DNA of 48,867 nucleotides from Agathobaculum butyriciproducens. GTDB lineage: Bacteria > Bacillota > Clostridia > Oscillospirales > Butyricicoccaceae. The stretch lies in assembly GCA_003096535.1 (NCBI GenBank), contig QEKJ01000020.1:1-48867 (forward strand), in the 5' to 3' direction. This document shows positions 28,769 through 47,600 of this stretch, one piece after another; position 1 is the stretch's first letter; each line of letters begins with the position of its first letter. Position numbers and translations under genes: made by a program. The notes under the pieces were generated by a model. The model was not told the DNA's origin and ran no database searches. It saw only the letters and a list, made by a program, of their open reading frames with translations.

Positions 28769-30925
28769 TCACACTGCAATGCGTTTGGATAAAAACTGCG
28801 CCGCCGACTGACACAGCTTGAGCAGCACCTCATCCGCCTTTTCGTCCTCTTTTTCGCTGACAAACGCGACACAGCCGCTGACATCGCCGTCTGTAATGAT
28901 CGGCGCCTCCGCAACCACCGCGCAGCCGTCCTGCGAGGAGATAAGCACCTCCAGCTGCTCGTCCGCACCGCGCTCGTAACATTCGCGGCGTTCCATCAGC
29001 TGTTCCAGCTCGGATGAGATACTCCGCTCCAGAATATCCTTTTTCACACCGCCTGCTGCCGCAATCACCGCATCCCTGTCGCAGATAGCACAGCTCATGC
29101 CCGCTGTACGCGCCAAAGCCTCCGCCAGTTCGGCGGATACCGCGCCCATCTCTCCCATCGGGGAGTATTTCTTGAAAATCACTTCGCCGTCGCGATCGGT
29201 GTAGATTTCCAAGGGGTCACCGCCGCTGATAACATTGACATCGAAAACCTTGTCCTTCTGGTTGCGCGAACGCTGGACAATACGGCATTTTTCGCTGTTT
29301 TCGATGCCTGAATTAAAATTTACGACGTTCTCCTCTCTCGTGCTCTGCAGCAGCGCGTCAATGTCACTTTGCAGATGTACTTCCAGATGATCCTCGTAAA
29401 CCGTGATCTTGTCTATCATGAGTTCCAGATCATTGCGCTCCATCTTGGGCTTGTGCAGCAGATCATCGAATACTTCAAGCGCGGTCTTGGCCGTGCGGTT
29501 GACCTCGATGATCGTGTTGCGCTTGTTGGACAGCAGTTCGATCTGGTGATTCAGGCCGTTGATCTTGCTTTGCAGCTCGGCTTCCATTTCATCATAAAGA
29601 TCGCCCAGTGTTTCCTCGTTCTCCGGGTGCTTCATAATGTCGCGGATACGCTGGCGCTTGGTAGCCTTGAGTTCTGCTGTCAGGTCATCCAGCACCTCGG
29701 CCAGATTGTCCGCCGACTGCTCGGTTTCCACGATCTGATTATCCTCGCAGGCCAGTTCCGCGTTCAGCCTGTCGAGCATCTCCGCAGAGCCGTCCATCAC
29801 ACGGCGGATGTACAGACGCATAAGCTCGTCCAGCTTGTCCACGCGGATATGATGGCTAGTGCAGCCCGCTCGTCCGCGGCGATGGTAGGTGCCGCAGGTA
29901 TACGCCGGAGCGATGTCCGAACGGCTCATCGAGAACATCGGTGCGCCGCAGTCGCCGCACTCAAGGAAGCCCGAGTAGACGTTATCGTACTTCTTGATAC
30001 CACGGTAGTTCGAGCGCGTGCGCTTCTCCCGCAGAGCACGGGTGGTTGCAAACGTGCGGTAGTCGATGATCGGCTGATGGTGGTTCTCGATGACGATCTG
30101 CTCGTCCTCGTCTCGCCGCACATCCTTGCCGTTGATCTTTGCCCGTGTAAACTTGCCCTGGCGCAGTGTGCCGATGTAGAAATCGTTATCGAGGATACCC
30201 TGCACGGTCACAAGCGCCCATGCAGCCTTAACTTCCCGCTTGGTTGTCTTGCCCTCAGCCTGCCTGCGCATCTGCTCGGACATGCGCGGTGTGGGCACAC
30301 CCTGCTCGGTCAGGTAGTTGGCAATCTTCTTGTAGCCCCAGCCATCATTGTTGTAGTGATCGTAAATCCGGCGCACAATGTCCGCCTCGGTCGGTACAAT
30401 CTCAAACTGCTGCTGATTGTTGATGATGTAGCCGTACGGTGCGGCGCACAGCCATTTGCCGTCCGCCTGCCGCCGTTTGATGACGTTTCGCACCTTGCGC
30501 GAGGTATCCGTGACCGGCATTTCGTTGACGAGGAACTGAAACTGGATTTTCAGCCAGTCATCGTCGTTTGGAAAGTCAATGCCGTCGCCGATGGAGATGA
30601 TGCGGACCCCTGCATCGCGCAAGTCTTCGAGTTCCACTAATCCGCGGCTGTTGCGGCGAGAAAATCGAGAAAAGTCCTTGATGATAAGGATGTCGTACTT
30701 GTGGCTCATCAAGCCTTCTCTCATTTTCTGATATCCCTCGCGCTGCTCAAACGTGTAGCCTGAGCGGTCGCGGTCCTCGAAAAAGGTCAGGCTGCTGCCC
30801 GGGAACTGCGTTTTTACGAAGTCCTCGATGATGGCTTTCTGGTTCTCGATAGATACGTTGTCACGGTCGAGCTCGTCATCGACGGAAATGCGGGTGTAGC
30901 CCGCTATGTTAAAGGTTTCGGTCAT
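28769..30925 (-). CDS. Large serine recombinase fused in frame to SpoVT lacking its N-terminus
   Basis: The 718-codon frame has two parts. Residues 1-~567 are a large serine recombinase: catalytic domain with GYTRISVDD (Ser14) and the conserved IIKDFSRFSRRNSRG, recombinase domain, zinc ribbon (CGDC, later CGTYHRRGRAGC) and coiled coil (~395-500). From residue 568 (GGDPLEIYTDRDGEVIFKKY, DNA 29224) to the end it is SpoVT from about its residue 30: the last part of the AbrB-like domain, then the GAF-like domain (CAICDRD, EAPIITDGDVSG). The join is seamless, as expected at an attachment site inside spoVT. The spoVT promoter and first ~30 codons are not found in this window. AAAGGAG precedes the ATG. 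Confidence 0.9.
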   Translation of the reverse strand: MTETFNIAGYTRISVDDELDRDNVSIENQKAIIEDFVKTQFPGSSLTFFEDRDRSGYTFEQREGYQKMREGLMSHKYDILIIKDFSRFSRRNSRGLVELEDLRDAGVRIISIGDGIDFPNDDDWLKIQFQFLVNEMPVTDTSRKVRNVIKRRQADGKWLCAAPYGYIINNQQQFEIVPTEADIVRRIYDHYNNDGWGYKKIANYLTEQGVPTPRMSEQMRRQAEGKTTKREVKAAWALVTVQGILDNDFYIGTLRQGKFTRAKINGKDVRRDEDEQIVIENHHQPIIDYRTFATTRALREKRTRSNYRGIKKYDNVYSGFLECGDCGAPMFSMSRSDIAPAYTCGTYHRRGRAGCTSHHIRVDKLDELMRLYIRRVMDGSAEMLDRLNAELACEDNQIVETEQSADNLAEVLDDLTAELKATKRQRIRDIMKHPENEETLGDLYDEMEAELQSKINGLNHQIELLSNKRNTIIEVNRTAKTALEVFDDLLHKPKMERNDLELMIDKITVYEDHLEVHLQSDIDALLQSTREENVVNFNSGIENSEKCRIVQRSRNQKDKVFDVNVISGGDPLEIYTDRDGEVIFKKYSPMGEMGAVSAELAEALARTAGMSCAICDRDAVIAAAGGVKKDILERSISSELEQLMERRECYERGADEQLEVLISSQDGCAVVAEAPIITDGDVSGCVAFVSEKEDEKADEVLLKLCQSAAQFLSKRIAV
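29205..29245 (-). other. Predicted attachment-site junction in spoVT
   Basis: Here the recombinase tail (DKVFDVNVIS) changes to SpoVT (GDPLEI). The crossover core of a large serine recombinase should lie around GGCGGTGACCCC. Exact core bases cannot be fixed without the empty site. Confidence 0.55.
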
Positions 30926-33068: not shown

Positions 33069-33832
33069 GCTGATACGACGACCGAAACCTATGATGCACT
33101 GAACTACTAGACGACCTACAACGGTACCTCGCGTAAGGCAAAAGATACGGTAGACGGACGTTTCACCACGCACGAATATGACAACAATCAGAATATTCCC
33201 CTGTTCCGCTATACTGTAATTGAAGATTCGCCGCATTCCTACATGCCTGAAGTATCCGAAATGGTCTGGAATGATTTCTTCTCGCATTTCAGTCTGAATG
33301 CAGATGGCAGCCGCAGCTACGACGGCGTTCAGGTAAAGCGAAACGCAGTATTTGCGGATGCCAAAGGCCATTGGGCACAGAATGCGATTGAAAATACTGT
33401 TGCAGAGGGTCTGTTCTCCGGTGTAACGGATACCTCTTTTGCACCGAACACATCCGCCACTCGTGGTATGCTGATGACGGTTCTGGCTCGCTATGCTGGC
33501 AAAGATACAACTGGCAGCACGCCCTGGTACGAGAAGGGTATGGAGTGGGCAAAGACCAACGGCGTGTCCGACGGCACGAACCCGAACGCCAACATCACCC
33601 GTGAGCAGCTCGTCACCATGCTGTACCGCTACGCCGGTTCTCCAACCGCAAACGGTAAGCTGGATAACTTCTCTGACTCTGCAAGCGTCAGCAGCTACGC
33701 TGAAAATGCAATGCAGTGGGCAGTAGCTAACGGCATTGTCAATGGCTCTAATGGCAAGCTGAACCCGCAGAATAACGCAACCCGCGCAGAAGTTGCTGCA
33801 ATCCTCATGCGCTTCTGCGAGATGAGCAAGTA
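33069..33832 (+). pseudogene. Esterase-like protein with three SLH domains, 5'-truncated and with a nonsense codon
   Basis: From 33069 the plus strand reads TETYDALNY, TAG (33108-33110), then TTYNGTSRKAKD, VDGRFTTHEYD, IPLFRYTVIEDSPHSYMPE. That looks like the end of a polyhydroxybutyrate-depolymerase/CE1-type esterase, with the TAG probably from CAG. Three SLH repeats follow (from ~33348: FADAKGHWAQNAIEN; EGLFSGVTDTSFAPNTSATR; GKLNPQNNATRAEVAAILM). The gene has lost its 5' end at the junction near 33060. The SLH part is intact but has no signal peptide. It closely resembles the SLH part of the phosphatase at 44.7 kb. Confidence 0.75.
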
Positions 33833-33855
33833 AAAAATAAATTTTTCGGCATAAA

Positions 33856-33930: not shown

Positions 33931-34469
33931 CACCGACGATAGAAAGTATTTGGCTTGAGACCGGTTTGCCGCATGGCCTCGACTGCGGTAATCTCTCCTT
34001 CCCGTCAGCGGGCAACCACCCGCTCGAAGTTGTCCAGCAAGGGCCGCGGCTTGCGGCCGGTGTACTTGCCCTGTTCCTTAGCAATAGCGATTCCCTCGCG
34101 TTGGCGCTGCAAGATGTACTCCCGCTCAAGTTCCGCGACTGCGGCGAACACGGTGAGCATAAACTTGCCGGTGGGCGTGGTCGTGTCGATGGCCTCTTTG
34201 CGGCTGACGAATTCTACTTGTTTCTCGGTCAGTCGTTCCACGAGATCAAGCAGGTCGCGCGCGTTTCTCGCAAATCGGCTGATGGACTCGACAATAACCG
34301 TGTCGCCGCGCCGGACATAGTTCATCATACGTGTCAGTTCCGGGCGGTCGGCATTCTTACCGCTTGCCTTATCGATGAATAACTCGTCAACATCGAGTTC
34401 GCGCAGCAGGACTTCCTGCCGAGCTGTGTTCTGTTCCTCGGTGCAGACACGGATATAGCCAATCTTCAT
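33931..34469 (-). pseudogene. Small serine resolvase with Cys at the nucleophile position and a nonsense codon
   Basis: The open frame (34469 to 34005) codes for 154 residues of a Tn3/Hin-type resolvase: MKIGYIRVCTEEQNTARQ, DTVIVESISRFARNARDLLD and GKYTGRKPRPLLDNFERVVAR. The family nucleophile Ser is replaced by Cys9 (RVCT instead of RVST). After the TGA stop the same frame continues REGEITAVEAMRQTGLKPNT and FYRR, the missing helix-turn-helix. A Trp codon (TGG) most likely became TGA. Both changes argue for an inactive gene. AAAGGAG precedes the ATG. Confidence 0.85.
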
Positions 34470-34525
34470 GGTGTATCTCTCCTTTAATATATGGTATAAT
34501 GGAAATAATAAGGGCGGTGACGCTG

Positions 34526-34852
34526 ATGGATAAGACAATCGAACAGGTAAAACAGTTAGCGCACCGTTGTGGAGTGCCGAAACTGATATTATTCGGTTCG
34601 CGTGCCCGCGGCGATTATCGCGCCCGTAGCGACTACGATTTTGCGGTCTGGGACTGCACAGCGCAGCAGCGTGCGCAATTCAGCGATGCTGTCGAAAATG
34701 ATCTGGACTCGCTGTATTCGGTTGATCTGGTGTTTGTCAGCGAACACACCGATGCCGCATTGCTTACTATGCCGAATATACAACAGACTAAGATTACCGA
34801 AATTCTTAATAACATTGCCATGTCCTGCCGCATGGAAGGACTGGAGAAATAA
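34526..34852 (+). CDS. MNT-type minimal nucleotidyltransferase (orphan antitoxin-like)
   Basis: This 108-residue protein shows the polymerase-beta-fold motif GSRARGDYRARSDYDFAV with the two catalytic Asp. MNT proteins usually pair with a HEPN toxin and act as antitoxins that AMPylate it. No HEPN-like gene follows; the next 390 bases hold no credible gene. So this may be a solitary remnant. The ATG at 34526 follows AAGGGCGGTGA. Confidence 0.8.
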   Translation: MDKTIEQVKQLAHRCGVPKLILFGSRARGDYRARSDYDFAVWDCTAQQRAQFSDAVENDLDSLYSVDLVFVSEHTDAALLTMPNIQQTKITEILNNIAMSCRMEGLEK

Positions 34853-35165
34853 AGACCATTGGATTGATACAAAGATACGATACGCATAGGCAACAGAATA
34901 TGCTTAAAACCGCTTGATAGAAGGCTTTTTGAAATGCTGGATTTCAGAAGCTTTCTTTTTTTGCCTTTTTTGCGATGTTTGACGAGCAGCAAATAGCAGG
35001 TGGAAGAACGAGTGGGTGCAAACAATGAACGATAGCAGAAAAGAGTAATCGTTCAAGGTGAGCTATCGTGTAAAGGGTGTTATGTATCGTTCGGTGTGCG
35101 CAATTAACAAGTATCAACAAATATAATGAAATAATAAATAAAATTATAAAATATCAGAAAACTAC
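34853..35165. other. AT-rich intergenic region
   Basis: No gene is seen. An imperfect stem (GAAGGCTTTTTGAAAT with ATTTCAGAAGCTTTC, ~34919-34957) followed by a T run may terminate the MNT transcript. Base composition changes from mixed to strongly AT-rich towards 35100, marking the left edge of a foreign segment. Confidence 0.5.
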
Positions 35166-35194
35166 TTGAAAATTGATTCAGAAAGAAATATAAT
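35166..35194 (+). promoter_or_regulatory. Promoter of the HTH gene
   Basis: TTGAAA (35166-35171), exactly 17 bases, TATAAT (35189-35194). Confidence 0.75.
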
Positions 35195-35241
35195 ATAATA
35201 TGTATACTTGCGTTTATTTCACAAACCGCAGAGGTGATTAT

Positions 35242-35439
35242 ATGATTGATAATAATTTAATGGATGACAATTACATAAGTATTGATGATGCTGCGGCGTA
35301 TTTAGGAATAAAGACAGTCACTTTGCGCAACTGGATAAAGAAAAAACCAGACATTCCAGCACATCGTGTAGGGAAACTCTGGAAGTTTAAGCGTTCTGAA
35401 CTTGATGAATGGATAGCCAGTGGAAAAAGCGCAGAGTAA
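35242..35439 (+). CDS. Excisionase/MerR-type small DNA-binding protein
   Basis: This 65-residue protein is one helix-turn-helix domain of the HTH_17 group: YISIDDAAAYLGIKTVTLRN, then WIKKKPDIPAHRVGKLWKF and RSELDEWIASGK. Proteins of this type act as excisionases or as small regulators of nearby genes. The ATG at 35242 has AGAGGTG upstream. It lies just before a two-component system and may control it. Confidence 0.82.
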   Translation: MIDNNLMDDNYISIDDAAAYLGIKTVTLRNWIKKKPDIPAHRVGKLWKFKRSELDEWIASGKSAE

Positions 35440-35456
35440 TCATCAATACATTCTCA

Positions 35457-35484
35457 CCACCTATAGAGGTGGGAGTCATCTCCC
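35457..35484 (+). promoter_or_regulatory. Two overlapping short palindromes before the response-regulator gene
   Basis: CCACCTATAGAGGTGG (35457-35472) is followed with overlap by GGGAG-TCAT-CTCCC (35471-35484). They lie in the 84 bases between the HTH gene and the response regulator and could be operators or a mild terminator; no T run is present. Confidence 0.4.
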
Positions 35485-35523
35485 AGCTGATATATATAGT
35501 TAATAAAGAGAGGTGCATATGCT

Positions 35524-36213
35524 GTGCCAGGTATACTCGTGGTTGAAGATGATGAAAATTTAAATCGTGGAATTACATTTTCACTGAAAAAATCCGGATA
35601 TGAGGTTTTTTCAGCAGAATCAGTGAAAAAAGCGAAAAGAATTGCAAGTAATAATAATGTGGATGTTGCCATTTGTGATGTGAATCTTCCGGATGGAAAC
35701 GGATTAGAGCTTGTCAGATGGATGCGGAATTGTCAAAATGTATATATTATCTGTCTTACCGCGTTGGATCAGGAGACAGATCAGGTCATGGGATATGAAG
35801 CCGGTGCGGACGATTATATGACGAAACCGTTCAGCCTTTCCGTACTTCTTCTGAAAATCGAGGCTCATTTCCGCCGCAGAAAGAATGAACCCGGAACTCC
35901 AAAAATTCATTCAAAGGATATCGTATTTATCCCCGGAGAGATGAGGGCGTTCGTAAAGGAAAGAGAAATAAGCCTTACGAAGAATGAACTGAAAATGCTG
36001 TCCTTTTTTCTTCAAAACCCGAAACAGATTCTTTCAAAAACACAGCTGTTAGAAAACGTGTTTGATCTGGATGGTGATTTTATGGATGAAAATACGGTAG
36101 CTGTGAACATCAGAAGGCTTCGGGAGAAAATCGAAGAGGATCCGGCGGCTCCGGTTTATATTAAAAACATCCGCGGGCTTGGGTATATATGGAATCAGGA
36201 GGTAAGTCAGTGA
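35524..36213 (+). CDS. OmpR-family response regulator
   Basis: This 229-residue regulator has a receiver domain (~1-115: VVEDDENLNRGITFSL, phospho-acceptor Asp in VAICDVNLPDGNG, switch Thr in CLTALD, Lys in YMTKPF) and a winged-helix DNA-binding domain (~130-225: LTKNELKMLSFFLQNP, VNIRRLREKIEEDP, IRGLGYIW). The start is GTG at 35524 with AGAGAGGTG nine bases upstream. It overlaps the histidine kinase by four bases. Together with the following ABC exporter it resembles BceRS/VanRS-type antimicrobial-peptide response modules. Confidence 0.93.
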   Translation: MPGILVVEDDENLNRGITFSLKKSGYEVFSAESVKKAKRIASNNNVDVAICDVNLPDGNGLELVRWMRNCQNVYIICLTALDQETDQVMGYEAGADDYMTKPFSLSVLLLKIEAHFRRRKNEPGTPKIHSKDIVFIPGEMRAFVKEREISLTKNELKMLSFFLQNPKQILSKTQLLENVFDLDGDFMDENTVAVNIRRLREKIEEDPAAPVYIKNIRGLGYIWNQEVSQ

Positions 36214-37460
36214 CGAAACGACATCGTAAAAAGTGGGTTGATGCCTTGTCACTGGTGCTGCCGGTTCTACTCTTTTTTGCGGTATTGAACTGCTTTACCA
36301 CCTATTTATATTATCAGGATTATCAATGTAAAATGGATATCCTGACAGAAGTTGCGGCGGGCGCAGAGACCACCGGCATGGATGTTGCCGCAGGATGGCT
36401 GAAAGGCAACGACCATCAAGCCAATGAACAAGGTAAGCAATTATTAGAGCAATACGGGTACTGGGAAAACAAAGGGACTTCGTTTTATGTACGCTTCCGG
36501 CAGAATATCATGATAACCGGCTGTACAAGTGCAGTGCTATGTCTGTCTTTGCTAACGTTCCTGTTTTACCGGAAGAAAGCTGAGGCGAAAGAAAGTCGGA
36601 AACGATTGGAGCAGCTAGAGCAAATCCTGATTGCATTTCGGGAAAATCACTTTGAGGTAGTGCCGGACACAGAAGATCCTGTCGGGCAGGAAAGACTGAA
36701 ATTTCAGCTTGAAGCAATCGGACATCATATCCAGCTGCTGCAAGAGGAAGCCAGAGCGGAGAAGGAAAGCACAAAGGAAATGGTATCCGACATTTCCCAT
36801 CAGCTGAAAACCCCGGTTGCAGCCTTGGATACCTGCTTTAGCATATTGCTGCGGAACAATCTGAGTGAGACGGAGCAACAGGAATTTCGCATCCGCTGCC
36901 GGAGTGCATTGGACGGATTGGAAACATTGTTGCAGTCTCTGCTGGAAATATCCAAACTGGAGACAGGTTTGATTCAGCTTGATCAGAAAACACTTCCCAT
37001 TATGAATACGATCATCTCCGCAGTAAATCGAACGTATCCAAAGGCAGCGGAGAAAGGGATAGAACTTATTTTCGACTGCAACGAATCACTGGAGCATTGT
37101 GCACTCATGCAGGATAAACGTTGGCTTGGAGAAGCAATCATTAACGTTTTGGACAATGCCATCAAATACAGCCCAGAACATTCAAAAATCACGATCCGTC
37201 TACAAAAAAGAACCGGCTTTGTGAGAATTGAGATCGAGGATCAGGGAATCGGAATCCCGCAGAGTGAATACCATAAAATATTCCAGCGGTTTTATAGAGG
37301 GACTGCGCCGGAAGTCCGCGAAAAGAGCGGAACTGGTATCGGTCTGTATCTGTCCAGACAGATTATTGAACAGCATGGTGGGACAATCACGGTAGCCTCC
37401 GGCAAAGTCAGAAAAGGAAGTACCTTTTTGATTCAGCTGCCGGAGAATGGACTTTCGTAG
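36210..37460 (+). CDS. Membrane sensor histidine kinase
   Basis: This 416-residue kinase has two membrane segments (~10-32 VLPVLLFFAVLNCFTTYLYY and ~104-120) around a short ~70-residue extracellular loop. The dimerisation/phospho-acceptor motif is DISHQLKTPVAALD and the ATPase boxes are LDNAIKYSP (N), IEDQGIGIP (G1), FQRFYRG (F) and GTGIGLYLS (G2). GTG at 36210 overlaps the regulator's stop as GTGA and has AGGAGG just upstream, so translation is coupled. A strong terminator follows. Confidence 0.93.
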   Translation: MTKRHRKKWVDALSLVLPVLLFFAVLNCFTTYLYYQDYQCKMDILTEVAAGAETTGMDVAAGWLKGNDHQANEQGKQLLEQYGYWENKGTSFYVRFRQNIMITGCTSAVLCLSLLTFLFYRKKAEAKESRKRLEQLEQILIAFRENHFEVVPDTEDPVGQERLKFQLEAIGHHIQLLQEEARAEKESTKEMVSDISHQLKTPVAALDTCFSILLRNNLSETEQQEFRIRCRSALDGLETLLQSLLEISKLETGLIQLDQKTLPIMNTIISAVNRTYPKAAEKGIELIFDCNESLEHCALMQDKRWLGEAIINVLDNAIKYSPEHSKITIRLQKRTGFVRIEIEDQGIGIPQSEYHKIFQRFYRGTAPEVREKSGTGIGLYLSRQIIEQHGGTITVASGKVRKGSTFLIQLPENGLS

Positions 37461-37468
37461 AGATGATG

Positions 37469-37508
37469 AGCAGAAGTCTTTCAAATCTGTAAGACTTCTG
37501 CTCTCTTT
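37469..37508 (+). terminator. Terminator after the two-component system
   Basis: AGCAGAAGTCTT pairs perfectly with AAGACTTCTGCT across ten bases, followed by CTCTTTTT. Confidence 0.92.
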
Positions 37509-37510
37509 TT

Positions 37511-37542
37511 GAAAGTGAAATGAAAGGTTCCTTTGATACAAT
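37511..37542 (+). promoter_or_regulatory. Likely regulator-dependent promoter of the ABC exporter
   Basis: A TACAAT -10 (37537-37542) has no consensus -35 at 17 bases. In its place is GAAAGTGAAATGAAAG, a direct-repeat-like stretch, and the palindrome AAAGGTTCCTTT (37523-37534). This fits activation by the adjacent response regulator. Confidence 0.5.
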
Positions 37543-37572
37543 GCTGGTAAATAAGAAAAGGAGGCCATTGGA

Positions 37573-38247
37573 GTGGGCGTGATATTAGAAACGAATCAGC
37601 TTTGCAAATTTTATGGGACGGGGGAAAATCAGGTCAAAGCCGTCAATCATGTGAATATCCAGATTGAGCAGGGAGAATTTGTCGCCATTGTCGGAAAATC
37701 CGGCTCCGGAAAAAGTACCCTGCTGCATATGCTGGGCGGGCTGGATACACCAACCAGCGGCAGCGTGATCTTGTCTGACAAGGACCTGTATTCCATGAAG
37801 GAGGATCAGCTTGCCGTTTTCCGGAGAAGAAAGATCGGATTTGTATTTCAGGCATTCAATCTGGTATCCTCCATCAATGTGTGGGAAAATATCGTTCTTC
37901 CGTTGGGGCTTGACGGAAAAAAAGTGGATAAAGCTTATGTCAATGATATTATCACCACACTGGGTCTTGAACACCGGATTCATAATCTTCCGAATACCCT
38001 CTCCGGAGGACAGCAGCAGCGCGTTGCGATTGCAAGAGCCTTGGTAAACAGACCGGAGATTTTGCTTGCGGACGAGCCAACCGGAAATCTTGATTCCAAG
38101 ACAAGTGACGAGGTGATCGCGCTGCTGAAAATGAGCGCAAAAAAATATGGACAGACGATTGTAATGATTACCCATGATGATGAGATTGCGCAGGTTGCTG
38201 ACCGTATTTTAGTCATCGAGGATGGACAGGTGGTGGATTTTAATTGA
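37573..38247 (+). CDS. ABC exporter ATP-binding protein (MacB/BceA-like)
   Basis: This 224-residue ATPase has Walker A GKSGSGKST, the Q-loop IGFVFQAFNLV, signature LSGGQQQRVAIARA, Walker B ILLADEPTGNLD and His-switch MITHDD. It forms a transporter with the FtsX-like permease downstream, with which it overlaps by four bases (TTGA). Start GTG at 37573 follows an AAGGAGG. Such pairs commonly export or dislodge peptide antibiotics. Confidence 0.93.
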   Translation: MGVILETNQLCKFYGTGENQVKAVNHVNIQIEQGEFVAIVGKSGSGKSTLLHMLGGLDTPTSGSVILSDKDLYSMKEDQLAVFRRRKIGFVFQAFNLVSSINVWENIVLPLGLDGKKVDKAYVNDIITTLGLEHRIHNLPNTLSGGQQQRVAIARALVNRPEILLADEPTGNLDSKTSDEVIALLKMSAKKYGQTIVMITHDDEIAQVADRILVIEDGQVVDFN

Positions 38248-40673
38248 GGACGATCAGCAAAATCGCATTCAGCAACGACAAAAGAAATCGCACAAGAAGT
38301 GTCCTCATTATGACGGCGATTTGCCTGACTACCATGCTTCTGGTCGTTATCAGTACAATTGGAAATGGCCTGATCCTCTTACAGAAGGATCAGGCTGCAA
38401 GCTCATACGGAAGCAACTACGGCCTGTTTATCGCCGCAGATGATACGCAATTAAAAGAAGTGGAACGCAGAGCTGAGATATCTGATATCGGCACCATGTG
38501 TACGGAGGGCATCCTGAAAGGAAATGAAAATGGCGGCTTTGTCAGTGCGGATGAAACGGTCAGGAAAATGCTTCCCTATAATCAGGAATATGTGTTGAAG
38601 GAAGGTACCTATCCGGAAAAGGCGCAGGAAATTGCCGCAGGACGCGCTTTCTTTGATGCAGTGGGATACCATGATGTAAAGGTCGGAGACACCGTAACAT
38701 TGGAGTACCGTTCCGGTATGCAGTCGGAATACGCACCGGTGGAATTTACTGTCAGCGGGATTTTATATGACCGGGATGAATATACCATCGAGGCTTCCTA
38801 TGTTGTATTCGGTTCGCAGGATTTTTATAATGAGCGTGTTGCGGAGGGTGACAGGCAATATAATATCTATTTTACCTTGAGCGATTCTGCAAATGTATCT
38901 ATGAATAATGTTGCGCCTGTTATAAAAGAAATCGCGGATTCCTGCGGCATTGACCAGAAAAACGTGACCATCAATGACCTCTACCTGCAGTGGGTATTGC
39001 AGCCGAGCTATGAAATGATTGTGGTTTGTGGAACCCTGATCCTCGGAATCGTGCTGTTTTCCGTTGTAGTCATTTATAATATCTTCCAGGTCGGGATCGC
39101 CCAGAAGGTTCAGGAGTACGGAAAAATCAAGGCGCTGGGTGCAACCAGAAAGCAGATGAAGCAGCTGATCTTTCGTGAGGGTCTTCTTCTGGCGGTTCCT
39201 TCGATACCGCTGGGGCTGCTGTTTGGTTTCCTGATTGCAAAAGTCAGCTTCAACTGGCTGGTGGAGCAGGGAAATCTGGTATCGTCCGGAATCAAGAACC
39301 ATCAGGTGCCTCTGTTTTCACTGACAATTATGCTCATCTGCATTTTTGTATCGTTTCTTACGGTCGTTTTGGCTCTGCGCAAACCCATGAAAATTGTTTC
39401 CCGGATTTCACCCATCGAAGCGACACGGTATCTTGGCGGCTCCAAAACGCAAAAACGGGGCAGACGAAAAGGCAGAAAAGATGTCACCGTTTTCTCCATG
39501 GCAATGGCAAATGTGACAGGCAATCCGAAAAGAACCATCGCTACGATTCTTACCATGGGGCTTTCCTGTGTATTGTTTGTAATTATCGCTAATTATGTTG
39601 GGAATATTGACACGGAGCATGAAGCACGTCTTTCCGTTAATCATGGACAATTTGAACTGCAGCTGGATTATTCCCAGAATTATGATGAAGCCTATTCGGA
39701 GAATAATCTGGACACAATCCTACAGAACGACCCACTGAATGATTCTTTGATTAAAGAAATCAAATCCATCCCCGGTGTAACGGATGTACTGACGAGAGAA
39801 ATCGTCTCTGCAGATTTGAACGGAACAAAATTTCCGGTTGCAATCGTAAATCAAGAGGATTTTGAAATGATGCGCGGGGATGGCGATATCGGTTCCATGG
39901 ACTATGCACAGGCTGTCAAAAACGGGGATGTTTTCTTTGGCTGGTCCATGTGGATGGAAGCTGACGGGTATTCTGTGGGTGCACCGATTACATTCAACTT
40001 TGATAACGGAAGCGGAACCTATACCTATCATGGAAAAATCGCAGGCTCCTTTGTAAGCGCGGACAATTATCTTGTCATTCCGGAAGGTGTATACCGTTCC
40101 ATGAATCCGAGGGGAACAGCCTATGGCTATCTGTGGGTGGACTGTGATAAAAAAGATGTTGCATCTGTGGAACAGAGTCTGAATACTTTGATTTCTAATA
40201 CTTCGCATATAAAAATGGATACCTATCATGCACAGTTACAATCTGCAGAATACGCAAGCCGTATGATGAAGCTTGGCTGCTATCTGTTCATGGCAATTGT
40301 CGGTCTCATTGGGTTTATGAATCTGGCAAACACCATGATCATCAATATCACCACGAAGAAGCAGGAATACGGTGTGCTGCAAGCGGTAGGCATGACCAAT
40401 AAGCAGTTGAATCTGAGCTTACAAATACAGGGCTTGATTTTTACGGTTGGCACCATCTGCGTCGCACTTGCTGCCGGTCTGCCCCTTGGCTATGCACTGT
40501 TTTCCTATGCGAAGCATAATGGGATTTTTGGAATGAACGTTTATCACGTTCCTCTTATCCCGATTCTTGTTATGATTCTTCTGGTTGGTATTCTACAAAT
40601 TGTGCTTTCCTGTGTTTTAAGCAGTAATCTGAAAAAGGAAACGTTGGTAGAAAGAATCAGGTATCAGGGATAG
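38244..40673 (+). CDS. FtsX-like ABC permease (antimicrobial peptide exporter type)
   Basis: This 809-residue membrane protein has the SalY/YtrF-type layout. There is an N-terminal membrane segment (~20-42), a ~200-residue extracellular domain, three segments (~260-400), a second FtsX unit with segment ~435-455, another large extracellular domain (~465-670) and three final segments (~680-790). Family motifs around EYGKIKALGATRKQM and EYGVLQAVGMTNKQ are the duplicated coupling helices. The start is TTG at 38244, overlapping the ATPase stop. Base composition and codons are more AT-rich than regions 1 and 5. Confidence 0.92.
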   Translation: MRTISKIAFSNDKRNRTRSVLIMTAICLTTMLLVVISTIGNGLILLQKDQAASSYGSNYGLFIAADDTQLKEVERRAEISDIGTMCTEGILKGNENGGFVSADETVRKMLPYNQEYVLKEGTYPEKAQEIAAGRAFFDAVGYHDVKVGDTVTLEYRSGMQSEYAPVEFTVSGILYDRDEYTIEASYVVFGSQDFYNERVAEGDRQYNIYFTLSDSANVSMNNVAPVIKEIADSCGIDQKNVTINDLYLQWVLQPSYEMIVVCGTLILGIVLFSVVVIYNIFQVGIAQKVQEYGKIKALGATRKQMKQLIFREGLLLAVPSIPLGLLFGFLIAKVSFNWLVEQGNLVSSGIKNHQVPLFSLTIMLICIFVSFLTVVLALRKPMKIVSRISPIEATRYLGGSKTQKRGRRKGRKDVTVFSMAMANVTGNPKRTIATILTMGLSCVLFVIIANYVGNIDTEHEARLSVNHGQFELQLDYSQNYDEAYSENNLDTILQNDPLNDSLIKEIKSIPGVTDVLTREIVSADLNGTKFPVAIVNQEDFEMMRGDGDIGSMDYAQAVKNGDVFFGWSMWMEADGYSVGAPITFNFDNGSGTYTYHGKIAGSFVSADNYLVIPEGVYRSMNPRGTAYGYLWVDCDKKDVASVEQSLNTLISNTSHIKMDTYHAQLQSAEYASRMMKLGCYLFMAIVGLIGFMNLANTMIINITTKKQEYGVLQAVGMTNKQLNLSLQIQGLIFTVGTICVALAAGLPLGYALFSYAKHNGIFGMNVYHVPLIPILVMILLVGILQIVLSCVLSSNLKKETLVERIRYQG

Positions 40674-40791
40674 CAGGTATTGCTGGGATATCCTCAGTAT
40701 CATAACAGGAATTAAAAGCACTTGGCTTCAAAAAGTTTTGTACTTTTGACAAAATGCAACCGATTTTTCATCAATTATAATAAATTTGATT

Positions 40792-40830
40792 AAGCAGCCT
40801 GTGTGTAATGAAGCATACAGGCTGCTTGCA
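40792..40830 (+). terminator. Terminator of the ABC exporter operon
   Basis: AAGCAGCCTGT pairs with ACAGGCTGCTT across a 14-base loop, followed by GCATTTT. It is about 120 bases past the permease stop. The intervening and following AT-rich sequence (40674-41088) holds no gene I can support; a TATACT at ~40855 could belong to the next gene. Confidence 0.75.
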
Positions 40831-41088
40831 TTTTATAACTTTTTTATTTTATGTTATACTGTTTTATATAATTTTTTTGCCCTTGTATTTGCCTTTATCA
40901 GAGTTCATAAACACTGATGGGACGATATAACACAAGGGAAAAAATAAGGGAAAGCTCACCTGCGACAAATCCAGTGTTTTCAAGGGTTTGCGGAGAATTG
41001 AATAACAAAATATAACAGTTATTAAATCTCTTAAAACAGGTGAAATCTCAATCGGAATTTGCATCAGCGTAAGAAGGAGAGCAATGTC

Positions 41089-41565
41089 ATGTTCAGAACA
41101 ATTCGTAAAAAGAAAAATGAAATCAGCATCGACACGGCAAAGACTCTTTTGCAGTTCAGCCGACGTGGCGTTCTTGCCGTAAATGGAGATGACGGATATC
41201 CCTATGCAATTCCTATCAACTATGTCTACGATGACGATGCGCAGAAAATTTATTTTCATGGAGCACGTGCAGGCCATAAAGTAGATGCACTGCGTGCCTG
41301 TGACAAAGTATGTTTCACGGTATATGGAAATGAAACCATCAAAGAAGAAGATTGGGCACCGTTTGTGCAGAGCGTTGTGGTATTCGGCAGATGTCACCTC
41401 GTAGAATCCGGCGCAAGAGCAACAACTCTGTTAAAACGATTTGCAATGAAATACTATCCCAGCGAGCAGTTAGTTGATGAGGAAATTGCCCACGCAGGAA
41501 AGGCTGTGCAAATTTTTGAAATAGAAGTGGAGTACCTCAGCGGTAAGGAAATACAGGAACGATAA
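41089..41565 (+). CDS. Pyridoxamine 5'-phosphate oxidase-fold flavin-binding protein
   Basis: This 158-residue protein has the split-barrel PNPOx-like fold common in Clostridia: LLQFSRRGVLAVNGDDGYPY, AIPINYVYDDDAQKIYFHGA and GHKVDALRACDKVCFTVYG. Relatives include NimA-type nitroimidazole reductases and other flavoproteins. AAGGAG precedes the ATG at 41089. Whether it is functionally tied to the exporter is not clear. Confidence 0.85.
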   Translation: MFRTIRKKKNEISIDTAKTLLQFSRRGVLAVNGDDGYPYAIPINYVYDDDAQKIYFHGARAGHKVDALRACDKVCFTVYGNETIKEEDWAPFVQSVVVFGRCHLVESGARATTLLKRFAMKYYPSEQLVDEEIAHAGKAVQIFEIEVEYLSGKEIQER

Positions 41566-41748
41566 ATTCCAGTTTACAATATCTAAATCCTAGGAAAGGA
41601 GACCTGCCGATATGCGCACAAAAGCTATCATTCGATTATGCACACACCTTGCACACTGTGCGTATCGTTCATAATGCACATAGTGTTCATCGTTCACGAG
41701 TACAAAAGGGGAAATCGTGTGATTGTATCAATTTTGTAAGGGCAACCG

Positions 41749-41844: not shown

Positions 41845-41853
41845 AACTCATTT

Positions 41854-41917
41854 ATGTCAATAGGATCGCCGCACATTCTGACATATTGCAAAAGTCCGAA
41901 AGCGACCCTATTGACAT
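41854..41917. repeat. Near-perfect 16-base inverted repeat
   Basis: ATGTCAATAGGATCGC (41854-41869) and GCGACCCTATTGACAT (41902-41917) match at 15 of 16 positions around a 32-base centre. It could be the remains of a small transposon or a protein-binding palindrome. Confidence 0.6.
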
Positions 41918-41960
41918 AGTTTTTCGTTGTTTCAGATGGGTATACCCTAACGACACGCTC

Positions 41961-41998: not shown

Positions 41999-42073
41999 TT
42001 AGTCATCGTCAATGATATCGGCCAGCAGACCGATAATAGTCAGCGCACCGAGAATGACTTTTCCTGCGTTCAC
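41999..42073 (-). CDS. Tiny peptide gene B, 24 residues
   Basis: A GTG-initiated 24-residue peptide (NAGKVILGALTIIGLL, then an acidic ADIIDDD end) has a full AGGAGGTG seven bases upstream. It is hydrophobic with a single Lys and four Asp near the C-terminus. It starts twelve bases after peptide A and is the last gene before the operon terminator. I do not recognise the family. It is too short to be supported by coding statistics; the support is ribosome binding site, position and similar character to peptide A. Confidence 0.6.
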   Translation of the reverse strand: MNAGKVILGALTIIGLLADIIDDD

Positions 42074-42085
42074 TTTTTCACCTCC

Positions 42086-42172
42086 TCAACTGTCCGAGAA
42101 ATTTTCAACGGCCTCGATAATCAAGTCGACCACCGCGCCTACAGCCTGGAAAATTGGGCCTAATGGAATCAT
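42086..42172 (-). CDS. Tiny peptide gene A, 28 residues
   Basis: An ATG-initiated 28-residue peptide (MIPLGPIFQAVGAVVDLIIE, then AVENFSDS) has AAAGGAG nine bases upstream. It lies 18 bases after the amidotransferase stop. It is a hydrophobic, amphipathic-helix-like peptide with acidic residues (Asp16, Glu20, Glu23, Asp27) and no basic residue. Length and pattern recall small helical peptides such as phenol-soluble modulins, though with opposite charge. No leader or signal is visible. It is the best candidate substrate for the upstream amidoligase pair, an inference. Confidence 0.65.
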   Translation of the reverse strand: MIPLGPIFQAVGAVVDLIIEAVENFSDS

Positions 42173-42190
42173 AAGCAACATCTCCTTTCC

Positions 42191-43129
42191 TTAATATGCG
42201 TACAGCAGTTCGCCGGTCATCTCGTGGAGCAAGGTCGGGTCGTACAGCATTTCCTCGATTTCCTCTTCAGAACAGCCATAGTCCAGAAGTGCCTGCACCT
42301 CATCCGTGGTAACGCCGAACGCCTTCGCCACGCTGAACAGGTCGTCATAACTGGTCGGCGTGTCCTCATAATAGCTGCGGTAGAACGGGGACTTTCGCCA
42401 CCAGTGCTCGAATGTCGTGTGGGGTGTGAAGGTCCCGGTAGTGATACGGCCGTTGCGGTCAATTTTCATAATCTTGCCCTCCTTTGGCTCCAGAATGTCA
42501 GAGGGTGCGGTCAGCTTTAACTTCTTGATGGTCTTGCACAGGATTTCCTGTGTGGAAGCGTAGAGCAGGTAGCCGTCGTAAAACATGATGCACAGCGGGT
42601 TATCGCCAACCACAAACCAGATAGCATCGTTCTTATCCAGAACCGTAAAGACAAAGGAACCCTCGACTGCTTCAGCCATAGATTTCAGGCTGCCGAAGTC
42701 GAGGGCTTTGTTTTTCTCTAAGAGTTGAACGGCAACATAGCTGTCCGTTTCTACGCTCGTCTGGGGAATATTTTCCGTCATACGGAGCTCTTTGTCGTTC
42801 CAGAGAACGCCATTATGTGCAAGGGCAAAAGTACCGCTGTCAACATGACCAAGGAACGGATGGTTATTCTGGTTAAACTGTGCATTGCCCTGAGTCGTCA
42901 TGCGAGTGTGACCCATCACGATATTTACGCCGTGCGGAATGTGAATCTTCATTTTCCGAGCGGGAAGGGGGCGCTTATAAATGCGCAGACGGCCGTTGAA
43001 GCTGTAGGCAATACCTGTCGCGTCCGTACCGCGCACCTGGCATTCTCTTGCCAGAGTATTCAAAATTTTGTTCTTCGTATGGGTGCTGAGGCACTCTTTG
43101 AAATCAATTAAACCGAATAAACTGCACAT
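42191..43129 (-). CDS. Class-II glutamine amidotransferase (N-terminal Cys)
   Basis: This 312-residue protein begins MCSLFGLIDF, giving the N-terminal nucleophile Cys2 of class-II (Ntn-type) amidotransferases. Further family motifs are VMGHTRMTTQGN, LAHNGVLWND and ETDSYVAVQLL. There is no synthase domain such as those in GlmS, PurF or AsnB; the C-terminal ~60 residues are acidic. It would release ammonia from glutamine and supply a partner enzyme, most likely the amidoligase coded three bases upstream. The start ATG has GGAGGAGG eight bases before it, inside the amidoligase stop region. Confidence 0.9.
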   Translation of the reverse strand: MCSLFGLIDFKECLSTHTKNKILNTLARECQVRGTDATGIAYSFNGRLRIYKRPLPARKMKIHIPHGVNIVMGHTRMTTQGNAQFNQNNHPFLGHVDSGTFALAHNGVLWNDKELRMTENIPQTSVETDSYVAVQLLEKNKALDFGSLKSMAEAVEGSFVFTVLDKNDAIWFVVGDNPLCIMFYDGYLLYASTQEILCKTIKKLKLTAPSDILEPKEGKIMKIDRNGRITTGTFTPHTTFEHWWRKSPFYRSYYEDTPTSYDDLFSVAKAFGVTTDEVQALLDYGCSEEEIEEMLYDPTLLHEMTGELLYAY

Positions 43130-43132
43130 ATT

Positions 43133-44227
43133 TTAAGCCTCCTCCGTATTGGCATTAACAGGTTCGTTAACGTAAAGACGACGTTCTTTGAGATACTGAA
43201 TGAGTTCGGGTTCGGTGATGTTGTCCAGAAAATCAAACCAGCTCATGTCCTGCACCGTAGTGTCGGACATAGAAACAGCCACCTCGACGAGATGGTTGAC
43301 CATCTGCAAGGTGGCTTTCAAAGTATTGAGTTTCAAAGTGCCGCGGAACATACGGATTTCAACCGTATCCGCGTTCGTAAGGTTGACCGCCGTGTAACGT
43401 CCGGCACAGGAATTCTTCGCGTGGTTCATCTGTTCGGACGGGGTGAGGCGGATGCCGTACCGCGCTGCCCAGCGGTTCATCTGGGACTGCGTACGGCGGC
43501 TGAACCGCAGCAATTCTGCCCAGAATTTTTCGACGAAATACAGTAAACGGGCAATCGCGGCTTCCTGCTGTTCGTAGGTGCAGCCAAAGGCCAAGCGAGA
43601 AATATGTACGTGCAGTCCGCAGGTGCCAGCGGCATGACTGAGGTAATTCATGCTCCGGGCCTTGCGGAGAACTTCTGCCCACGGCATTTCAGTCAAATGG
43701 TACTCAAGCGTCATCGGATGAGTGACAAGTTCCAAGCCTTCATCCAGACTGCCGTCCGTCTTGATGTAGAGATTTTCAGCATTCTTGTTCGCAATATCAA
43801 GCAACTTCTGCGCATTGCTGTTTACCGTGCCGCCGTCATCGATTTCAAGCTCAACGCCGAAATGGCGAAGGCCTTTGCCGTGAAATACAAGATCCGGTGT
43901 GTAATTGTACTCGTGAATAATGTTACAATGCTCATCCCAGCAGGATGCGCAGTAGGCGTTGTCGTCATTATCCCAATACGCGCGGTCACGATGAATAATG
44001 CGGTTGCAGTCTTCGCAGCGGACGTAGTATTCATCAAAGCAGCGGTCGCAGAGTGTGTGGGTATCGTCCTCGACGGCGTTTTCCTCGTAGACCCGCTCGG
44101 CGCAGTGGTCGCAGATTACGGTCAGGCGGTCGGTGCAATCCTCGCAGAGCCAGTCATTTTCCGCTTGGAACATTTCGTCGATTGGGTATTCTGCACCGCA
44201 GTTTGCACAAATTCTTGTTTCGCTCAT
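43133..44227 (-). CDS. Amidoligase with N-terminal zinc-ribbon array
   Basis: This 364-residue protein has two parts. Residues ~1-105 hold successive CxxC pairs (CANCG, CEDC, CDHC, CDRC, CEDC, CASC), a zinc-ribbon array for protein or nucleic-acid contact. Residues ~115-330 form an amidoligase domain of the glutamine-synthetase fold: FGVELEIDD, YIKTDGSLDEGLELVTHP, GTCGLHVHIS and DTVEIRMFRGTL. Such enzymes activate a carboxylate with ATP and couple it to an amine. The start at 44227 follows GGAGG by eight bases; an ATG five codons upstream overlaps that site. It is followed by the amidotransferase gene. Confidence 0.9.
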   Translation of the reverse strand: MSETRICANCGAEYPIDEMFQAENDWLCEDCTDRLTVICDHCAERVYEENAVEDDTHTLCDRCFDEYYVRCEDCNRIIHRDRAYWDNDDNAYCASCWDEHCNIIHEYNYTPDLVFHGKGLRHFGVELEIDDGGTVNSNAQKLLDIANKNAENLYIKTDGSLDEGLELVTHPMTLEYHLTEMPWAEVLRKARSMNYLSHAAGTCGLHVHISRLAFGCTYEQQEAAIARLLYFVEKFWAELLRFSRRTQSQMNRWAARYGIRLTPSEQMNHAKNSCAGRYTAVNLTNADTVEIRMFRGTLKLNTLKATLQMVNHLVEVAVSMSDTTVQDMSWFDFLDNITEPELIQYLKERRLYVNEPVNANTEEA

Positions 44228-44257
44228 TGTCTGTTCCTCCATTTCGTATAGTAAATC

Positions 44258-44545
44258 TTAATATTCTTCAGCGAGTAGCATAGTAGAATGCGTCAAATCG
44301 TCGATGACGAACACCTTCGCGTTTACTGCATCATCACACGGTACATCGAGCTCGTAACGGTACGGCGGCTGCTCCTGCTCGTGGACGATGTGTTGGCCAG
44401 TCGGTGTTTTCGTCAGCGTGAATACCTGCAAGTAATCCTTCTCGGATACTTCCATCATCAGGACCATGTGCCACATAAGATGAACAAGCCATGCGGGAAT
44501 CTCGCTTTCTATCCCGCGCGTCAGAAATTTTTGATTGTTGAGCAT
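44258..44545 (-). CDS. DUF960-family protein
   Basis: This 95-residue protein matches the DUF960 pattern: KFLTRGIESEIPAWLVHLMW, DYLQVFTL, QHIVHEQEQPPYRYEL and the ending VFVIDDLTHSTMLLAEEY. The function is unknown; members are frequent in Firmicute plasmids, phages and conjugative elements, where they can lie close to amidoligase genes. AAAGGAG precedes the ATG at 44545. It is the first gene of the operon, 30 bases before the amidoligase. Confidence 0.85.
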   Translation of the reverse strand: MLNNQKFLTRGIESEIPAWLVHLMWHMVLMMEVSEKDYLQVFTLTKTPTGQHIVHEQEQPPYRYELDVPCDDAVNAKVFVIDDLTHSTMLLAEEY

Positions 44546-44598: not shown

Positions 44599-44638
44599 CT
44601 ACCTTTATAATGTATAGCTTAAAATGGAGAAAAAACAG

Positions 44639-44666: not shown

Positions 44667-44679
44667 GTCTGTATGAGGT

Positions 44680-47600
44680 TTACTTGCTCATCTCGCAGAA
44701 ACGCATGAGGATTGCGGCAACCTGTGCGCGGGTTGCGTTATTCTGCGGATTCAGCTTGCCGTTCAAGCCGTTGACAATGCCGTTCGCGACCGCCCACTGC
44801 ATTGCGTTTGCAGCGTAGCTGTTTACGCTTGCAGCGTCGGAGAAGCTGTCGAGCTTGCCGTCTGCCTTCGGAGAGCCTGCGTAGCGATACAGCATGGTGA
44901 CAAGCTGCTCGCGGGTGATCTTCACAGTCGGGTTGGTGCCGTCGGAAACGCCCTTGGCCTTCGCCCAGTTCATGCCCTTCTCGTACCAAGTAGCGCCGCC
45001 GGCGGTGTCCTCGCCTGCATAGCGAGCGAGAACGGTCATCAACATGCCGCGGGTGGTGGACGCATTCGGGGAGAACGTATTGCTGCCGGTGCCGTTCATC
45101 AGGCCCTTGTCGATCACATAGTTGATGGCATCCTTGGCCCAGTGGTTGGCAACGTCGGTGAAACCGGCCTTGGAGCTGTCCTCTACGTCACCGATGGTGC
45201 CGTAGTTGTCAAAATCCTTGGCATAGTTGCGATAAACGTGACCGGGCTGATGGCCTGCCGCGCCCTCAAACGTGCCCTTTTCCCAGTCGGTCAGGGTATT
45301 CCAGATCTTGGTCTTACCAGCGGTCAGCGCGTACTCATTGAGTACCGGAACGCTGGATTCTGTGCTGTTCAGATCAGAAACAAACGCGGTCTTAACGCGG
45401 ACATACTTGGCATCTGCCATGCCGGTCAGATCGATCTTGCCGGTGCCGGAGGTCAGCGCTGCGGACTTCTCCTCCTTAACAGTCTTGCCGTCGTCCGAGG
45501 TCTGTACGGTCGCGGTGATGGAAGCCTTGCCCGCGAAGGCAGCATTATAGCTCAGTGCAGTCGGTGCGGCGGTCGCTTCTACCCACTCGGTGGTGTGCGA
45601 ACCGCTGGTCTCGATATTGCTGTCCTCGAAGTCCAGCCAGATCTTCAGGCTGTTCTTGGAAGCGCCTGCGGAAGTCGGATTATTGCGGACTGCGGTCACT
45701 TCGTTCTCGCTCAGTTTGGAGGTGTAGAAGCGTACCTGCGATACTGCGCCCGGCAGCATGGTGTGATACATGCCGCGGTTGCGCTTGGTCTGGAGCGTAT
45801 TTTTGAAGCCCAGACCGATGTACATCGGCTCGCCTTCCCAAGTCTTGATGGGGGCATTCTCAAAAGCGGGCTTGTCTACATGTGCGCTGTGCAGCTCGTT
45901 CTCGTAGGAGTCGCCACCGGTCGTAAAATCAAATGCGCTGGTGTACTGAACCCACTGGTCCTTCTTGATGCCGAAGCTGTCATCACTGCCGTCGTTCCAG
46001 CTGAACTCGCCGTTGTCGTCGAGCAGGCAGACACCGTAAGTCACCTTGCCGGTCTCACGGACTGCCATGCGGAACATATACGGGGTGCCCCAGCCGAGGC
46101 CGATGCCCTTGACCATCAGTGGGTTGTGATCCGGGATAGCGCCCTTGCCGTCCAGATCAACATACTGCTCGGTCAGCTCGGAAACGCCGCCCTTGGTGGT
46201 GCCTGCGCTCGGCAGGTTTGCCCAGATCATACCGGTCATGGCATCCTTGGGGGTGTAGCCGCCGTTGTCGGGGATCTCGATATAGTCGCGCTTGCCATCG
46301 AGTACGAGAGTCTGCTTGCCTTTGTCATCGGTGCCGAATTCCGGCTGACCGTGAATATATGCATTGTTGCCATTGCCGGACTTGTCCTTGACGATCGGCA
46401 TGCCCTGGATAGAGCCTTCGATGTAAACGGTCTCCGGCTTTGCGTTGCCGATGGTGACTTCGTATTTACCGGCCTTGTCAAAGGTGTAGGCAAATTCCGC
46501 AGTCTGGGATTCGCCGGACTTGAGGGTGTACTGGCGGGTGCCGACGGTCACGCCGTTTACCTTGAACTCAGCGGTGCCGGTGCCTGCATCGTTGCCGATG
46601 TTGACGACATCAGCCTTGATGTGCAGGATGTTGCTGTTCATGTCACTGGTCTTGCCGTTACCCTGCTGGGTGCGGATGTTGGTGTAGTCAAAGGTTGCGG
46701 GGCGGTACTTTACGTTGACGGAGACAGTCTTGTCCGCCAGCTTGAGGGTGTGCGTGCCCAGCGTCTCCATGCGGAGCGTGCCGGTCAGCGTTGCGGACTT
46801 GCCGGGATCGAGCGTTACGATGCCGTCCTCGAACTTGTAGAGGTAACGGGTGGTGCCGTTGTCCACGACCGGGATAACAGCCGCCGCCAGACCCTTGCCG
46901 TTGTTCGTTACCTTGGCGGTAACGGTGACTTCGCCGTTGTACAGCACTTCGCTCGGGGTGATGGAGATATCCGACCACGAAAGCTGCTGCTTGTCCTTGG
47001 CTACCAGCGTCTCGTTGGCTACCTTGGAGTCCTGACCGGCTGCTGTTGCGCCGTAGTTCTTGACATCGAGAACGCCGGAACCGGGAGTGCTGGTGATGTA
47101 GAAGAAGTCGCCCTTCTTGTTGTAGGTACGCGCGTCCTGATGGGTCAGGTAAATGGTGCCAGCGCCGACAGACGGATCGCTGGATACCGCGCGCGCATAG
47201 CTGTGTGTATGGCCGGACAGCAGCAGGTCTACCTTGCCCGGCTCAATGACTGCCGGAATGTAACGCTTGGTGTACGCATCCGATACCGGATGGTGCATGA
47301 AGATCATGCGGAACTCGGCGTTCTTTGCAGCGTCGGTCGCCAGATCCTTCTTCAGCCAGTTCATCGCGTTGTCGATGGTCTTGATGGTGGCTGCGTCAGC
47401 CTGCTGGCCGGTCGCCTCGGAGTTCATCTGGAACAGGCCCCACGGGTTGCTGTTCATAGTAACGATGTGCAGACCGGCGTAATTGAAGGAGCTGTCGCCC
47501 TCGACCTCTGCGCCGTATTCTTTATCCTGAATGGAGTATACATAGGTGTTGAAGTATACACCGCCCTGATCGTGGTTGCCGGAGGAATAGACAACCGGAT

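Follow-up and report, generated by a model that had tools for sequence, protein, structure and literature searches.

Which molecule is acted upon when the genes of a glutamine-dependent amidation pair are followed directly by two tiny open reading frames (ORFs)? This question is raised by an operon on the minus strand of contig QEKJ01000020.1 of Agathobaculum butyriciproducens (assembly GCA_003096535.1). The whole stretch analyzed, 48,867 nt long and hereafter called the window, provides the coordinates used below unless another contig or locus is named. Running from 44616 to 41962, the operon comprises a -10-like box, a leader hairpin, genes for a DUF960 protein, an amidoligase, and a glutaminase, two tiny ORFs, and a terminator-like hairpin. 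A preliminary description of this DNA had proposed that the enzyme pair amidates the two peptides, which it took to be acidic. Our analysis suggested that this operon probably encodes a module for glutamine-dependent amidation together with a peptide partner of one helix, and is as such a variant of known amidoligase-glutaminase pairs.

Tiny Peptide Genes behind the Glutaminase Gene

The first tiny ORF (42086-42172, minus strand) starts with ATG and encodes P1, a 28-aa peptide with one hydrophobic helix and an acidic tail; a second in-frame ATG lies 9 nt upstream of this start. The second ORF (41999-42073, minus strand) starts with GTG and encodes the 24-aa peptide P2. Neither peptide matched anything in Pfam, PHROG, or NCBIfam at E values up to 1. 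To define such peptides, we used a strict rule that required an ATG or GTG with a Shine-Dalgarno-like stretch, 18-45 codons, a hydrophobic 13-residue window, and a start between -45 and +110 relative to the glutaminase stop codon. Under this rule, a small hydrophobic ORF was found directly behind 22 of 55 glutaminase genes, as against 7 of 502 other genes in the same neighborhoods (the 55 genes represent 54 loci; two further genes had too little downstream DNA). A hidden Markov model (HMM) of the peptide family, which matched both P1 and P2, gave 33 matches at E < 1e-3, spread over 30 of 65 loci, and nothing further at E < 1; these matches are partly circular, because the HMM was built from 22 peptides, most of which were found again. 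Of the loci that the HMM added to those of the strict rule, one (L067) starts its peptide with TTG, two (L076 and L077) have an additional ORF separating the glutaminase from the peptide, seven lack an in-frame ATG, and four (L118, L121, L123, and L128) belong to distant families. Other small hydrophobic ORFs occupied the same place in L007, L063, L095, L114, and L127. Within the host's own genome, P1 matched only two operon copies.

The pattern of nucleotide substitution was then compared. Between P1 and its paralogue on contig C22, all 11 substitutions were synonymous, with the stop codon excluded. Between P2 and its C22 copy, seven of nine substitutions fell on third positions, with one Ile/Leu change and a GTG/ATG difference at the start. 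When pairs within six groups were summed, substitutions at codon positions 1, 2, and 3 numbered 60, 14, and 219, so that 219 of 293 were at third positions; the pairs are not independent, the G044/G047/G049 group is absent from these sums, and the group without an ATG is represented by six of its seven loci. As judged from these codon positions, the tiny ORFs are under purifying selection and are real conserved genes. The two peptide genes of the preliminary description were thus upheld by the strict-rule enrichment, the peptide-family HMM, the retention throughout one clade described below, and the synonymous change.

A separate observation concerned loci L068 to L074, in which a P1-like frame is kept just 3' of the glutaminase gene, with 114 of 158 pairwise changes at third positions (six of the seven loci). 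The reachable ATG or GTG in these loci is out of frame, and an in-frame ATC or ATT follows the Shine-Dalgarno stretch. This peptide may be made from a non-AUG start or through a start-proximal frameshift.

The Enzyme Pair and the DUF960 Protein

All three larger proteins of the operon were named by Pfam. The amidoligase (43133-44227, minus strand; 364 aa) matched PF12224 over residues 156-310 (E 3.7e-5; 24.2 bits against a cut-off of 22) and, in PHROG, phrog_16683 (E 2.4e-89). The glutaminase (42191-43129, minus strand; 312 aa) is a free-standing class II (N-terminal nucleophile, Ntn) enzyme that matched PF13522 (E 2.4e-13). The DUF960 protein (44258-44545, minus strand; 95 aa) matched PF06124 (E 8e-24; 84.4 bits against a cut-off of 25) and had no family in PHROG or NCBIfam; its fold had a single clear match, Enterococcus faecalis 2r41, a protein of uncharacterized function with 21% identity. 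The carrier role that the preliminary description raised for DUF960 is a conjecture.

In an alignment of 38 amidoligase rows, E126, E128, H170, H206, H208, E290, and R292 were invariant, as were twelve Cys residues arranged in six CxxC pairs. In an alignment of 31 glutaminase rows, C2, R76, N106, G107, and D129 were invariant. We assign these columns to the active sites by comparison with the motifs of the two families: E126/E128, H206/H208, and E290/R292 presumably correspond to the ExE, HxH, and ExR motifs of amidoligases, and in class II glutaminases we take Cys2 to be the nucleophile and the Arg, Asn-Gly, and Asp to be glutamine-site residues. Both enzymes therefore look catalytically complete from their alignments. 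The N-terminal zinc part of the amidoligase resembled LIM domains weakly in profile comparison (best E 0.0042). A glutaminase match accompanied the amidoligase match in 63 of 65 loci; of the two exceptions, L129 is ended by a contig border, and L130, with a partial amidoligase, has no glutaminase match. This conservation, together with the invariance of the expected active-site residues, supported the pairing of amidoligase and class II amidotransferase that had been proposed from the window.

Distribution of the Peptides across the Glutaminase Tree

A glutaminase tree was built from 55 rows representing 54 loci, with peptide labels assigned by hand from the scans. In this tree, 28 rows, each of them from the host's family, formed one well supported clade, and every one of them had a small hydrophobic ORF near the 3' end. 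The peptides belonged to one family in 27 rows and were different in one, copy C16 of the host genome. Outside this clade, the peptide family was also present in four rows that form two distant pairs. These data suggested that the peptide is likely a dedicated partner in the host's clade. A competing explanation would treat the tiny ORFs as unrelated passengers at the 3' end, the enzyme pair making a small amidated metabolite; loci without peptides do exist, and peptide sequences vary between lineages, as such passengers would. We consider this explanation quite improbable, since all 28 rows keep the small hydrophobic ORF even though the flanks of the compared copies are unrelated, and since the peptides are under purifying selection.

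Small hydrophobic ORFs were also noted upstream of the amidoligase gene in some loci that lack a downstream peptide (L119/L165, L115/L116, and L160-L162), an observation made without a background rate. L119 and L165, which come from genomes of different families, both carry a conserved Lys-rich hydrophobic ORF of 36 aa about 135 nt upstream of the amidoligase gene.

Copies of the Operon and Its Genomic Company

The host genome (2.8 Mb in 57 contigs) contained three copies of the operon, on contigs C20 (the window), C22, and C16, with amidoligases 95% (C22) and 88% (C16) identical to that of the window, and a decayed piece of the operon on contig C10. In copy C16, the gene directly before DUF960 (L007 5146-5358) encodes a zinc-ribbon protein of 70 aa that is similar to the N-terminus of the amidoligase. 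The 15 named loci belonged to Agathobaculum and Butyricicoccus, plus one "Clostridiaceae bacterium". Scans of the class and of the order gave amidoligase matches in 20 of 391 and 22 of 295 genomes, respectively, with the host's own included; across the phylum, 20 of 398 genomes gave a match, and only three (the host, G047, and G823) a strong full-length one. In the host's family, 18 of 87 genomes, counted by hand, had a glutaminase match at E < 1e-30, and the weaker matches look like other class II glutaminases.

Several genomes carried more than one copy. Five copies in G026 had about 2.52 kb in common at about 87% identity and shared nothing beyond it (six of the ten copy pairs were compared; L085 and L086 begin at contig ends, and their left border lies outside the comparison). 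This shared segment extended from near the -10 box to the acidic tail of the peptide. Two copies in G003 had 2.54 kb in common at 95% identity, with a second, separate match elsewhere. No terminal repeats were evident by eye. Genes near the operon, named from their sequences, included those for a relaxase, a VirD4-like protein, a YqaJ-like protein, an integrase, a group II intron-like reverse transcriptase, and an ABC transporter. Of 57 loci, 26 had a same-strand serine resolvase gene farther downstream, at a distance of 26 to 3652 nt from the glutaminase gene, and in several of these a palindromic GGTATACC-type motif was seen by eye between resolvase and operon. The operon is a repeated cassette, often found beside a serine resolvase and mobile-element genes. 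That the multi-copy cassette is kept by addiction, with the one-helix peptide as a membrane-damaging agent that the enzyme pair or DUF960 neutralizes, seems improbable to us. PADLOC gave no match for the operon proteins scanned, in a search that is no test of toxicity.

Viral contigs also encoded relatives of the amidoligase, in at least 494 stretches among the 600 pattern-matching stretches listed. Among the matches listed, 79 viral loci were kept, of which 13 had an adjacent glutaminase at E < 1e-5, with several more at weaker values, and three had DUF960; one viral locus, L179, contained the entire operon including the peptide. The abundance of these relatives, the glutaminases beside them, and the integrase, relaxase, VirD4-like, YqaJ-like, and resolvase neighbors would all fit an envelope-modifying superinfection-exclusion moron, in which the pair amidates a carboxylate of the wall or surface and so keeps competing phages or elements from adsorbing, the peptides being separate membrane proteins that serve the same purpose. 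A comparable proposal for phage phiEco32 is said to come from Iyer et al. in 2009. It is repeated in one paper, which states that the phiEco32 pair had been suggested to protect against superinfection by modifying the cell wall (PMC10580990), and another paper draws on it for amidoligases in prophages of Clostridium clostridioforme (PMC11318856). We regard superinfection exclusion as a possible, rather unlikely account of the operon studied here: the operon includes no envelope gene, the zinc modules point to a partner that is a protein or a nucleic acid, and the phiEco32 proposal is itself described as a suggestion.

A Proposed Role for the Peptide Partner

Taken together, these data lead us to favor, tentatively and at somewhat less than even confidence, the reading that the operon is a mobile, moron-like amidation cassette with a dedicated one-helix peptide partner that reaches the membrane. 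The glutaminase, with Cys2 as nucleophile, would release ammonia from glutamine and hand it to the amidoligase, which would activate a carboxylate with adenosine triphosphate (ATP) and turn it into an amide. The presence of three LIM-like zinc modules points to docking of the amidoligase on a protein or a peptide and not on a small metabolite. The dedicated partner would be the one-helix peptide from the 3' end of the operon, which would go to the membrane. Our first choice for its role is that of the acceptor, with an Asp or Glu perhaps amidated in the hydrophobic stretch or the tail, so that the helix would be less charged and would insert differently; as a second choice, the peptide would serve to tether or regulate the enzyme pair at the membrane. 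We consider it possible, if doubtful, that the pair has the peptide as its substrate. The fuller scheme, in which the pair turns an Asp or Glu inside the co-encoded membrane helix of 22-35 residues into its amide and thereby switches the helix between soluble and inserted states, with DUF960 as an escort, is unlikely.

Several observations weigh against the cassette with its membrane peptide, and in particular against the peptide as a general substrate. No small hydrophobic ORF followed the glutaminase gene in 19 of the 27 tree rows outside the clade (among them L157, with only 101 nt of downstream DNA, and L059, from the host's family). Eighteen of these 19 rows belong outside the host's family, where the pair thus probably works without a peptide behind it, and the pair without such a peptide in many lineages speaks for another or an additional substrate. 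The recurrence of tiny ORFs at the 3' end, as anticipated in the preliminary description, therefore held throughout the 28-row clade and failed in 19 of the 55 rows of the tree. The acidity of the peptides held for P1 (charge -4) and P2 (charge -3); charges in the peptide family ranged from -8 to +1, and those of non-family peptides at the same place reached +4. Because of this range, -8 to +4 overall, and the peptide-less rows, acidic peptides as substrates are not a general feature. In copy C16, an unrelated basic peptide replaces P1 and P2. In the G026 copies, the last peptide residues vary with the flanking DNA, so that the very C-terminus of the peptide is not conserved. On the favorable side, peptide presence tracked DUF960, at 17 of 24 loci with it against 2 of 17 without it (four loci, G017, G023c, G026a, and G646, were set by hand), an association that is confounded by ancestry. 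Pathways for ribosomally synthesized and post-translationally modified peptides (RiPPs) provide a further comparison. In some of them, such as that of thiostrepton, a class II glutaminase in an asparagine-synthetase-like protein drives amidation of a carboxylate or the C-terminus of a ribosomal peptide; there, a single fused protein with another ATP-using domain acts on a precursor with a leader, and an exporter and a protease are encoded nearby. Neither an exporter nor a protease was found among the five operon genes, nor was a leader peptide, and a usual RiPP leader would not fit into peptides as short as 24 and 28 aa. The proposal that the pair amidates acidic peptides thus kept its conserved peptide genes, and it otherwise rests on gene order, with acidity not conserved and many loci lacking a peptide.

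A peptide gene tied to an amidoligase-glutaminase pair through a whole clade is nevertheless a concrete candidate partner, testable by mass spectrometry, and it bears on the substrate of the relatives encoded in viral stretches. The repeated cassette shows the module to be spreading among gut Clostridia as one unit. Should the peptide turn out to be the substrate, amidation would represent a novel mechanism for switching a membrane helix.

Probable Transcript Ends and Surroundings of the Operon

The -10-like box TATACATTATAA (44605-44616, minus strand), read from the sequence, precedes a terminator-like leader hairpin of 12 pairs with a T-rich tail (44598-44572, minus strand). The promoter listing for the window contained no sigma-70-type promoter at this box. 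Of 57 loci, 33 had a strong hairpin ahead of the first gene and 24 lacked one by the same rule, as a raw count without a background rate; a few of the 33 are more distant and may be unrelated. The stems had many different sequences across loci, with pairing kept. A similar, TATANTATAR-like box, read by eye, lay just 5' of the hairpin in 25 of the 33 loci, a position from which the transcript would begin at the hairpin; with a permissive string, a -10-like box was found in 35 of 57 loci. The leader had no Rfam match at the gathering score, and it may act as a 5' stabilizer or attenuator. At the other end lies the closing terminator-like hairpin (41994-41962, minus strand), whose stem was listed on the plus strand and is followed by T residues on the minus strand also. 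These two hairpins fit the two terminators described earlier, and the five leftward genes between them were recovered in the same order and on the same strand.

Beyond the closing hairpin, positions 41853-41953 (minus strand) contain a palindromic GGGTATACCC core (41932-41953) and inverted arms (41853-41869 and 41902-41918), which we infer to act as a res-like site; related motifs were seen by eye 3' of the operon in other loci. A small serine resolvase gene (34005-34472, minus strand; PF00239, E 3.5e-43) is probably the original neighbor of the operon, as in C22 a resolvase homologue lies about 1.1 kb from it. Relative to C22, an insertion of about 6.9 kb (34848-41747) separates the resolvase module from the operon in the window: C22 5198-5286 matches 34759-34847, and C22 from 5285 onwards matches the window from 41748 onwards.

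Other features of the surroundings were as follows. A nucleotidyltransferase remnant lies at 34499-34852, its longer form with a substrate-binding partner domain is present in C22 (L006 4471-5190), and related genes occur near seven loci in all. The ends of two convergent S-layer-homology genes (33444-33834 and 44679-45069), inverted copies that are 83% complementary, flank the region, and C22 is also near the end of such a gene. At 28769-30925 (minus strand), a large serine recombinase runs in frame into a SpoVT C-terminal part, the only SpoVT_C match of the genome; an AbrB-type first part on contig C10 (L008 1190-1310) breaks off at the same Gly-Asp-Pro-Leu stretch. The spoVT gene thus looks split, an arrangement reminiscent of a skin-like element within this gene. 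Were such an element to extend as far as the operon, the operon would be on the element side of the split; the contig ends leave the extent unseen.

Comparison with Known Systems

The MurT-GatD pair, which amidates peptidoglycan glutamate, is likewise a two-protein system for glutamine-dependent carboxylate amidation; it differs in its folds, one partner being Mur ligase-like and the other a class I glutaminase.

Among the paper titles listed by our searches of the open-access literature, we found no description of a set of DUF960, amidoligase, glutamine amidotransferase, and peptide genes. The earlier statement that no such system has been described therefore stands for the whole gene set, and it does not extend to the two enzymes, which are described together in phages (PMC10580990, PMC3890496, PMC3517423). 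The pair of phage Marvin is stated to have been suggested to act in secondary-metabolite synthesis (PMC10580990), and an amidoligase is reported in a planctomycete phage (PMC10945688). The phage modules (phiEco32, LUZ24/tf/UFV-P2, Marvin, and OM43 phages) have the same two enzyme families in each genome, near each other in UFV-P2. The ATP-grasp and COOH-NH2 ligase genes that are listed for UFV-P2 were absent among the five genes of the operon, the flanks not having been scanned gene by gene. Neighboring genes for an amidoligase and a class II glutamine amidotransferase are thus a feature that the phage modules share with the window and with 63 of 65 loci, and to this common core the operon adds DUF960, six CxxC pairs before the ligase domain, a leader hairpin, and one or two peptide genes.

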